This document shows, in pieces, positions 22,794 through 24,888 of a stretch of 33,779 bases of DNA (the first letter of the stretch is position 1; every line of letters begins with the position of its first letter). A program made the translations under genes and the position numbers. Below the pieces are notes generated by a model. It was given only the letters and a program-made list of their open reading frames with translations. It made no database searches and was not told the DNA's origin. This DNA comes from Planctomycetaceae bacterium (GTDB lineage Bacteria; Planctomycetota; Phycisphaerae; Sedimentisphaerales; Anaerohalosphaeraceae): positions 1 to 33,779 of the forward strand of contig JAJFTK010000039.1 in the NCBI GenBank assembly GCA_021372945.1, read 5' to 3'.

Positions 22794-23837
22794 ATGGAAC
22801 TAACAGATAATCTAAATATAAAGCATTTTAAGCCGCTGACGACCCCTGAGGCCCTCAAACAGGAATGGCCGGAATCGGAGGCCACCGCCCGCCTGGTCGC
22901 CCAGTCGCGCCTGGCCGTCCAAAGAATCCTCCGCGGCGAGGACCGGCGCCGCATGCTCATTGTCGGACCTTGCAGCCTGCATGATGAGGAGGCCACCATT
23001 GACTATGCAAGACGCCTGCAAAAGGCGCAGAAGGAATGTAGCGATCGTGTGCTGATCATCATGCGGGCTTATTTTGAAAAACCCCGCACCACGCTGGGCT
23101 GGAAGGGCATGCTCTACGACCCGCATCTGGACGGCTCTTATGATCTGGATGGCGGCGTGCGAAAAAGCCGAAAGCTCCTTTGCCAGATCGCTGAACTCGG
23201 CGTGCCGACGGCTACGGAATTTCTCGATCCGATCGTGCCGCAGTATTTGGCGGACCTGGTCACATGGGCGGCGATTGGAGCACGCACCACCGAGTCGCAG
23301 ATCCATCGGCAGATGGCCAGTGGACTTTCGATGCCCATCGGCTTTAAGAACGCCACGGACGGCAACCTCGGCATCGCGATGGATGCGATCCAATCCGCCT
23401 CCAATCCGCATTCCTTTTTGGGAATCGACCGCAACGGCCAGGTCATTGTCGCCGAAACGCGAGGCAACAAGTATGGCCACCTGGTTCTGCGGGGCGGCTC
23501 CAATGGGCCCAACTATGCCAGCGAATATGTGGTATTCGCCGAAGTCCTCCTGCGCAAGGCCCACGTCCCCAATGGCATCGTGATCGATTGCAGTCACGCC
23601 AACTCGCACAAGAATCCCAAATGCCAGCGCGAAGCATTGACCGACATCGCCGATCAGATCCGTTCAGGCAACAAGAGCATCTCCGGCGTGATGCTCGAAA
23701 GCTTCATCAACGAGGGCAAACAGAGCATCGGCGCCGCCGGCGGACTCAAGTATGGTGTCTCACTCACCGATGGCTGCATCGGCTGGGAGGAAACCGAAGA
23801 ACTCATCAGCGAATTCGCCCGCGCCATCGAAATTTGA
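22794..23837 (+). CDS. aroF: 3-deoxy-7-phosphoheptulonate (DAHP) synthase, class I (AroFGH type)
   Basis: 347 residues. Family blocks are clear: LIVGPCSLHDEEATIDYARR, IIMRAYFEKPRTTLGWKGML, PTATEFLDPIVPQYLADLVT, WAAIGARTTESQIHRQMASG, VLRGGSNGPNY and DCSHANSHKNPKCQ with the metal-binding His. It condenses PEP and erythrose-4-phosphate, the first step of aromatic amino-acid synthesis. Length and order match the E. coli enzymes. The N-terminal ~25 residues, the feedback-inhibitor region, are present, but which amino acid inhibits cannot be read out. It stands alone with its own promoter. Confidence 0.93.
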   Translation: MELTDNLNIKHFKPLTTPEALKQEWPESEATARLVAQSRLAVQRILRGEDRRRMLIVGPCSLHDEEATIDYARRLQKAQKECSDRVLIIMRAYFEKPRTTLGWKGMLYDPHLDGSYDLDGGVRKSRKLLCQIAELGVPTATEFLDPIVPQYLADLVTWAAIGARTTESQIHRQMASGLSMPIGFKNATDGNLGIAMDAIQSASNPHSFLGIDRNGQVIVAETRGNKYGHLVLRGGSNGPNYASEYVVFAEVLLRKAHVPNGIVIDCSHANSHKNPKCQREALTDIADQIRSGNKSISGVMLESFINEGKQSIGAAGGLKYGVSLTDGCIGWEETEELISEFARAIEI

Positions 23838-23894
23838 TGCATGCGATTCAAGCTTTAGCCTGTACGACCGCGAGCCCTAGCGTAACCCCCTCCC

Positions 23895-24355
23895 GGTCAT
23901 TCCGAGCGAAGGCTTGTGAGCCTTCGCCGAGGAATCTATTTATTCAGCAATTCCTCATTATTAGGCTTTACATTTGAATCTCTAAATTCAAACCATGGGG
24001 CTGACAGGTCGTTCCATTTTGGATTTAGAGCATCAATGAGCTCTATCTTCTTTTCACGACGTCATGCTTTGATCTGTTTTTCTCTTTTGATGGCAGCCGC
24101 AGGCGTATCGAGCCTTTCATAATAGAGCAGTTTATTGACATTGTAACGACTCGTGAATCCCGGTATTTGGTGGTCCTGATGTTGTATGACCCTTCGCACG
24201 AGATTCGATGCTATACCTGTATAGAGCGTCCCGGTTTGGCTGGCCATAATATAGACGTAACAGACTTTCATACGGAGGCAGTATAAACAAGGAATCTGCT
24301 GTTTCAAATAGATTCCTCCGACCGCCTTTTATGAAGGCGGTCGTTCGGAATGACC
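23895..24355. mobile_element. Palindrome-bounded GIY-YIG cassette (candidate small mobile element)
   Basis: The 461-bp unit has perfect 11-bp ends GGTCATTCCGA (23895-23905) and TCGGAATGACC (24345-24355), and perfect 13-bp inner repeats GAGGAATCTATTT (23929-23941) and AAATAGATTCCTC (24306-24318). Between outer and inner repeat each side has a hairpin: GCGAAGGC/GCCTTCGC (23906-23927) on the left, GACCGCCTT/AAGGCGGTC (24320-24342) on the right. The two hairpins differ in sequence but both are perfect stems. A further partial match (CAGCA-ATTCCT) lies inside. The only reading frame inside is a GIY-YIG nuclease whose stop and start codons lie in the inner repeats. No flanking direct repeat is visible. 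Confidence 0.65.
23936..24307 (-). pseudogene. GIY-YIG nuclease-domain protein interrupted by one TGA
   Basis: The frame opens at TTG 24307 (GGAGG seven bases upstream, inside the inverted repeat) or ATG 24271. It reads VCYVYIMASQTGTLYTGIAS, then NLVRRVIQHQ and AAAIKREKQIKA, where a TGA (24064-24062) stops it. Translation in the same frame continues RREKKIELIDALNPKWNDLS and ends at TAG 23938-23936. In this family KAW-R is normal, so the TGA replaces a TGG Trp codon. YVYIM and LYTGI are the GIY and YIG motifs, the Arg in NLVRR and the Glu in KREKQ fit the active site. These are small YhbQ/URI-type nucleases of unclear role. A point nonsense mutation, a sequencing error, or readthrough are all possible. 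Confidence 0.7.
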
Positions 24356-24468
24356 ATTTGACGCCAAGGCTGTCACATGATTCTAAGTGGCCGTCAGCGG
24401 TTACCGAGCTTGTTTTCGTGCCGCTTGTCGACCGTCGTTATGAATTCTGACAAGTGCGTCGCCGGGGC

Positions 24469-24888
24469 CTACTTCTTCCTGAGAATATCTCGGATATCCG
24501 TCAGCAGCAATTCCTCTTTGGTGGGCGCAGGCGGCGCCGCCGGGGCGGGGGCTTCCTTCTTATAAGCCGTGTTGATCGCTTTGATCAGCAGGAAGATGGC
24601 AAACGCCACGATCACAAAATCGAGGATATTATTGATGAACATGCCGTAACGAATCGCTACCGCCGGGGTGGTGATGTTTCCGGCGGCATCAACAATAGCA
24701 GGCTTCAGCGTAACGGCCAGGCGAGAAAAATCCATCTTGCCCAGCAAAAGCCCCAGCGGCGGCATCAGCAGATCGTTGACCAGCGATGTAACGATCTTGC
24801 CAAAAGCCGCTCCAATGATAATACCGACCGCCATATCGATCACATTACCGCGCATTGCGAAGGTCTTGAACTCTTTGAGCATTCTCAT
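24469..24888 (-). CDS. mscL: Large-conductance mechanosensitive channel MscL
   Basis: 139 residues: [40 protein letters not shown] (TM1 and its amphipathic start), then a periplasmic loop and TM2 [20 protein letters not shown]. The Ala/Pro linker [14 protein letters not shown] precedes the C-terminal helix [12 protein letters not shown] that forms the cytoplasmic bundle. It opens under membrane tension and releases solutes on osmotic downshock. Length is typical. The start ATG 24888 has AAAGGAG upstream. Confidence 0.95.

Follow-up and report, generated by a model that had tools for sequence, protein, structure and literature searches.

A small GIY-YIG nuclease gene between inward-facing hairpin words: probably a decayed copy of a mobile unit

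A 33,779-nucleotide stretch from a Planctomycetaceae bacterium (GenBank assembly GCA_021372945.1, contig JAJFTK010000039.1; "the window" below) carries at positions 23895 to 24355 a GIY-YIG reading frame enclosed by inverted repeats, with a hairpin on each side. Do gene and repeats belong together, and has such a cassette moved as one piece? We consider it probable that the window cassette is a copy, now decayed, of a small mobile unit, in which a gene lies between inward-facing hairpin repeats (here called words) and encodes a nuclease predicted to cut that same word. This reading builds on where the unit ends, on how nuclease subtypes pair with words, on the dispersal of words, on one empty site and on one gene-less version of 147 bp.

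The window cassette and its broken gene

The left outer hairpin word, GGTCATTCCGAG...CGAGGAATCT, lies on the forward strand at 23895-23937. The right outer word, on the reverse strand at 24310-24355, is the left's word facing inward with a different upper stem; both were located by pattern match. The two hairpins have the same architecture: each stands on a constant 5-bp foot (ATTCC/GGAAT), above which come an internal loop and an upper stem that varies; in the left one the foot is formed by 23899-23903 and 23931-23935 and the variable stem by 23906-23914 and 23919-23927. A reading made from the sequence only had proposed hairpins of unlike sequence on the two sides, and both indeed fold well below their shuffles (left word -13.6 kcal/mol, z -4.95; right word -15.5 kcal/mol, z -5.30). 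The perfect inverted repeats that it described are likewise exact: 11-bp outer arms at 23895-23905 (forward) and 24345-24355 (reverse), and 13-bp inner arms at 23929-23941 (forward) and 24306-24318 (reverse). Pairs like the outer arms are common by themselves, with 12 in the window against 6.9 per shuffle; the nested arrangement of outer and inner pairs occurs once in the window and in 0 of 40 dinucleotide shuffles. No Rfam match was found in 23700-24600 at E 0.1.

The gene between the hairpins, on the reverse strand, is broken. From a conserved ATG at 24271 it runs to a premature TGA at 24064-24062 (feature 24062-24271; PF01541, 50.6 bits, with one TGA inside). Translation of the frame past this stop gives the remainder, the last helix and C-terminus, at 23936-24061 on the same strand; it ends at a TAG (23938-23936) within the left inner arm. 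Read through the TGA, the frame scores 53.6 bits with PF01541. The TGA occupies the position of Trp70 in most relatives of the window gene's subtype, and because it interrupts the frame there the window copy is dead or dying. The intact frame assumed by the sequence-only reading thus has to be given up, as has its suggestion that this cassette is the master copy of the repeats: with a broken gene it is now unable to act as a working master. It is dead itself but belongs to a live kind. The idea that start and stop codons lie inside the inner repeats holds in part, since the inner arms are overlapped solely by the read-through stop (TAG, 23938-23936) and by a TTG at 24307-24305; the conserved ATG at 24271 is outside the inner repeat.

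The word is dispersed in the same genome (3.58 Mb, 146 contigs), where the long form GGTCATTCCGA..GAGGAATCT has 8 exact copies, the shorter GTCATTCCGA..GAGGAATC has 9, and a reversed control pattern has 0 matches. All nine copies start with GGTCATTCC, and eight of the nine have further inward bases in common (GAATCTATT or GAATCTGTT). Of eight words of this genome that were folded, seven came out more stable than their shuffles (z -2.1 to -5.3); the remaining one did not (z +0.4). On contig C123 two words form a 147-bp inward pair, both ends of which are the same as those of the window cassette and which leaves no room for the gene; this is a gene-less derivative. The genome has four PF01541 matches: the window gene and one each on contigs C55, C46 and C25. 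The C55 gene has a different word upstream and none was seen downstream, and the C46 gene belongs to another clade.

Gene, word and unit ends across relatives

Among 41 genomes examined, 24 contain GIY-YIG matches, 45 in all. Members of the window gene's clade are about 95 residues long, with Y7, Y17, R27, H31 and E64 invariant in 21 aligned members, and many are bracketed by hairpin words, including a cassette of the same genus (L076 in genome G005). The product is a small single-domain GIY-YIG protein (PF01541 is found in three relatives and in the window copy, truncated, when read through), and its model has the GIY-YIG fold with a predicted local distance difference test (pLDDT) score of 93. 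Tyr17, His31 and Glu64 are invariant among 44 rows and Arg27 is present in at least 90% of them; these we take to be the catalytic residues. The clade profile, A1, which at E 1e-15 also collects some weak matches from other clades, has matches in 85 of 162 genomes of the order and in 32 of 294 genomes sampled from the phylum, and it matched 7972 of 8000 scored protein candidates from a large database. A single-protein scan of named genomes supplied the best 80 of 287 loci, from which come the 54 tree rows with a phylum name (25 phyla). The protein of same-genus genome G008 is identical to that of a Planctomycetota bacterium (L244), which makes a planctomycete the most likely host. For the tests below, 255 profile hits (231 unique proteins) gave 214 genes near full length, 16 of them with an internal stop, and 197 with enough flank. 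Flanks were additionally taken for 13 GIY-YIG matches of the 41-genome set and for 80 stronger A1 matches.

A word stands on both sides of 132 of the 197 genes; for placements of equal size in the same loci, used as controls, the figure is 13 of 650. Homologues without flanking repeats would have spoken against a gene and repeats forming one unit; most of those with enough flank carry them, and the edges, subtype match and empty site described below agree with such a unit. Of the 132 bracketed genes, 89 have nearest words that face inward, 20 have both forward, 17 both reverse and 6 outward. The sequence-only reading had asked whether all such genes have inward-facing pairs; these prevail over outward ones, with direct orientation also frequent. 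Inverted-arm scores of at least 14 were obtained for 73 of 197 genes and for 2 of 130 shifted controls. Away from genes, 74 full words were found; neighbours within 200 nt face inward in 15 cases, outward in 7 and lie on the same strand in 4. The 15 inward neighbour pairs, all gene-less and of one word class, span 65-146 bp.

The ends of the unit are defined by comparison of cassettes. When cassettes from separate genomes are compared, the alignment runs from GTCAT to ATGAC and stops there (L125/L131/L128, L274/L291, L257/L260). Identity over the 20 nt inside the edge, which includes the word used for placing the edge, is 0.74-0.80, and over the 20 nt outside 0.29-0.32, for 222 pairs at 60-72% and 79 pairs at 72-80% identity. 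The 11 pairs at 80-90% identity have flanks partly in common (outside identity 0.46 and 0.36). The base preceding GTCA is T in about 75%. In 111 related loci the median unit length is 401 bp, and flank duplications of at least 3 nt show no excess; at that length the target-site duplication of terminal inverted repeat transposons and miniature inverted-repeat transposable elements (MITEs) is not seen.

Orthologous sites yielded one case in which the cassette is present in some genomes and absent from others. The cassette of G447 (L177), common to G446, is missing from G035, G443 and G025 of the same genus and from G442 of another genus, where its two flanking genes stand next to each other; the flanks are 78, 35, 35 and 188 bp apart in these empty sites, against 556, 559, 559 and 634 bp in the filled copy. 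The empty site of G035 reads TTCATATT-AGATACTTTATACAA, and no word is found at the site in G035, G443 or G025. In G445 and G444, judged by the flank matches, both flanks are present with a short gap between them. As the empty state is the more widely spread, we infer that the cassette was gained in G447 and G446 rather than lost elsewhere.

Which word brackets a gene follows the nuclease itself. Four words recur, TCATTCCCG (CCCG), TCATTCCGA (CCGA), TCATTCTGA (CTGA) and TCATTGCGA (GCGA), with patterns that permit a few transitions, and four nuclease subtypes were named by the residues after IK, a few residues past the catalytic Glu. Subtype K-W-[NK]-R-x-W-K pairs with CCCG, x-W-[RS]-R-x-K-K with CCGA, G-W-[LIVK]-R-x-K-K with CTGA and [AGS]-G-S-R-x-K-K with GCGA. 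Subtype and word agree in 149 of 172 genes (the 197 minus 22 without a word and 3 without a parsable subtype), where permutation gave a mean of 45.8 and a maximum of 66 among 5000; the regular expression placed the motif wrongly in several rows, which were counted as mismatches. Mutual information with word class, calculated over 91 alignment columns for all 175 genes with a word and with subtypes not used, ranks residues 71, 69, 13, 70, 15 and 74 highest. In the model (pLDDT 93) the region of residues 69-74 forms the turn between the Glu64 helix and the last helix, and residues 13 and 15 sit in the first beta-hairpin turn. On a tree built without the specificity columns, word changes number 32 against 93 when shuffled. 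For the 54 rows with a phylum name there are 16 word changes (27 shuffled) and 35 phylum changes (43 shuffled); both are below the shuffled value and so both carry signal, with phylum changing often.

Word numbers also follow the gene. TCATTCCGA..GAGGAATC was found in 80 and TCATTCCCGCG..CGGGAATCC in 118 of the 162 genomes of the order. The median number of CCGA words is 4 in the 31 genomes with the matching subtype and 0 in the 131 without (p 7e-6); for CCCG words it is 11 in 39 genomes and 3 in 123 (p 3e-5). Three cross-associations between subtype and word numbers have p 0.02 to 0.05, and kinship is ignored in all of these values. Repeat numbers unrelated to the gene, an outcome that would have told against the proposal, are therefore not what is seen. 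Within the genus of the window's genome, 87 words were counted in G005, whose cassette is intact, and 10 in G000, which has the broken one; G001, G002 and G009, in which no clade gene was detected, have 14, 4 and 7, G008, with an intact gene, has 1, and the five remaining genomes have 0.

A possible route of spread, and its rivals

The simplest reading of these observations would be a GIY-YIG counterpart of the repetitive extragenic palindrome (REP) system with its REP-associated tyrosine transposase (RAYT), a nuclease gene within its own recognition repeats that spreads as a unit. In such a scheme the hairpin would form on single-stranded DNA, for example on the lagging strand. The nuclease would bind the foot (GTCAT, ATTCC/GGAAT), read the variable word bases through two turns, one that follows the catalytic Glu (residues 69-74 of L244/L065) and one in the beta-hairpin (residues 10-15), and nick at the outer edge, (Y)GTCAT. 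The nicked, hairpin-bearing strand might then be re-joined elsewhere by host repair. This last step is a guess; it is assigned to the host because no GIY-YIG enzyme is known to stay covalently joined to DNA as an intermediate. Cutting of its own word, as predicted, would let the unit and its gene-less derivatives spread.

Several points weigh against this reading. Re-joining of a unit by an enzyme that only cuts is the weak step of the mechanism. At least five words occur in gene-less genomes in 14 of 77 cases for CCGA and 28 of 77 for CCCG, and G008, with an intact gene of the same genus, has 1 exact word. Direct-repeat scores of at least 14 are reached by 91 of the 197 genes; direct flanking repeats, frequent because words often stand in series, are thus at least as common by score as inverted ones, and a strict inverted pair is not obligatory. 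No pattern-matched word lies within 250 nt of 22 of the 197 genes, 16 of which are of the W-K subtype. The subtype-word agreement was scored with word classes and subtypes drawn up after the arms had been seen, and independent pairs on supported branches number 1-2 per test, too few for significance. Five cassette pairs at 90% identity or above share their flanks (outside identity 0.78 and 0.62), as common descent predicts, there is a weak excess of 2-nt flank matches (11 against 6.0 in 111 loci), and a second search for empty sites gave just one conserved flank.

Some of these points would suit a resident enzyme of the Ssn type, as reported for Neisseria, which polices DNA uptake or recombination at repeats that spread by other means, the gene merely sitting among them. 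Gene-less genomes with at least five words fit that account, as do the many genomes in which, among the matches listed, words far outnumber clade genes. Related cassettes nevertheless lie in unrelated flanks, and homology stops at the word edges while one site is empty in relatives; gene and words therefore moved together, at least there, and we regard the resident enzyme as unlikely. A Y1 transposase of the REP/RAYT type encoded elsewhere might instead move the words, with the GIY-YIG gene a passenger in a pair resembling a REPIN (a REP doublet). The anatomy is favourable, with a conserved 5' tetranucleotide, hairpins, inward pairs, no target duplication of at least 3 nt and the compact gene-less pairs of 65-146 bp; that word class tracks GIY-YIG subtype across phyla is unexpected of a passenger and leaves this account distinctly improbable.

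Under homing, the nuclease would cut an existing word in an allele that lacks the cassette, and gene conversion would then copy the cassette in; such an allele would need to hold the word. The empty sites of G035, G443 and G025 hold none and related cassettes have unrelated flanks, which makes homing very improbable here. Hairpins beside genes are common in general, and these might be bidirectional terminators of the ordinary kind, or inverted repeats that surround a small gene by chance; the nested arms missing from all shuffles, the words on both flanks far above control placements, the match of word to nuclease subtype and the empty Rfam search leave it almost no credence. Returning to the mobile unit with its own nuclease, we put forward a wider claim more tentatively, and with some doubt: that such cassettes are widespread, previously unnamed autonomous mini-elements, in which a GIY-YIG nuclease and not a transposase or recombinase moves a hairpin-bounded unit of about 400 bp through a simple residue-to-base code, and which may have seeded the TCATTCC-type repeats of environmental bacterial genomes.

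Known systems share parts of this picture. Ssn enzymes, reportedly described in Nat Commun in 2025, are said to be GIY-YIG nucleases that cut single strands site-specifically and that have partner repeats (NTS) in the genome of Neisseria; the nuclease is said to modulate transformation, and homologues to be matched to different repeats. The sequence-only reading knew no mobile class with a GIY-YIG partner; with nuclease-repeat pairing reportedly already described, the idea is less unheard of. The Ssn work probably covers the nuclease side of the present finding, and the evidence for a mobile unit and the explicit residue-to-word code are likely new. Ssn too is reported to combine a small GIY-YIG protein with a dispersed matched repeat. 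What would set the present case apart from Ssn as so described is the movable unit around the gene, with its defined ends, its empty site and its gene-less derivative. REP/REPIN-RAYT systems have hairpin repeats, a fixed 5' tetranucleotide, inward pairs and a gene between its own repeats, to which correspond GTCA at the outer edge and the excess of inward over outward pairs (89 to 6 at genes, 15 to 7 elsewhere). Their enzyme is a Y1 HuH transposase (TnpA-REP), whereas the gene in this unit is a PF01541 GIY-YIG nuclease and no Y1 HuH partner lies within it, Y1 genes elsewhere in the genome not having been searched for. MITEs and IS200/IS605 elements have short derivatives with shared ends and hairpin ends, and IS200/IS605 makes no target duplication; unlike them, the present unit contains no Y1 or DDE transposase. 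GIY-YIG homing endonucleases (in group I introns or free-standing, such as I-TevI) also place a nuclease gene in a mobile stretch, but one family's cassettes here lie in unrelated flanks, and no single conserved homing site was seen among the 301 cassette pairs at 60-80% identity, whose outside flanks are about 30% identical. For small GIY-YIG proteins of UPF0213 (PDB 1zg2, 1ywl) the entries say hypothetical proteins only and repeats are unmentioned.

We know of no established mover for the TCATTCCGA..GAGGAATC and TCATTCCCGCG..CGGGAATCC repeats; a small nuclease gene that lies between copies of its own word, and matches it through a code, would fill that place. If true, RAYT/REPIN evolution would have a GIY-YIG parallel, nature would provide many enzyme-site pairs whose specificity can be read, and movement without a transposase would become directly testable.

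GIY-YIG genes in other settings

Other GIY-YIG genes were met beside or within RNA genes. On contig C46 of the window's own genome (L010, C46:19550-22759) a different GIY-YIG gene at 1501-1746 comes just after a tRNA-Ser (1336-1424), and directly behind the gene the 3' end of the tRNA recurs together with about 31 nt (region 1336-1813), as if an element restored its target. A GIY-YIG clade adjoins tRNA-Asn in L069, L089 and L070 (genomes G032, G016 and G034); part of the 3' half of the tRNA recurs after the gene, from its stop codon, in L069 and L089, and a short piece only in L070. In L050, L053 and L088 (G001, G002 and G034) a GIY-YIG gene follows a tmRNA gene at a distance of about 130 nt. 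The GIY-YIG genes of L063 and L073 (two copies in G027) and L091 (G018) are within 23S rRNA genes between inverted arms of 16-22 bp, and resemble an intervening sequence with its own nuclease.

Another GIY-YIG clade (L058 and L066, in G010 and G036) lies between inverted CCCTGTTAGAGTT arms, the right one overlapping the stop codon. In L064, L072 and L079 (G018, G028 and G024) the C-terminus continues into the repeat, with WIPACAGMT in L064 and PPSRG in L072 and L079; here the repeat edges thus extend the protein.
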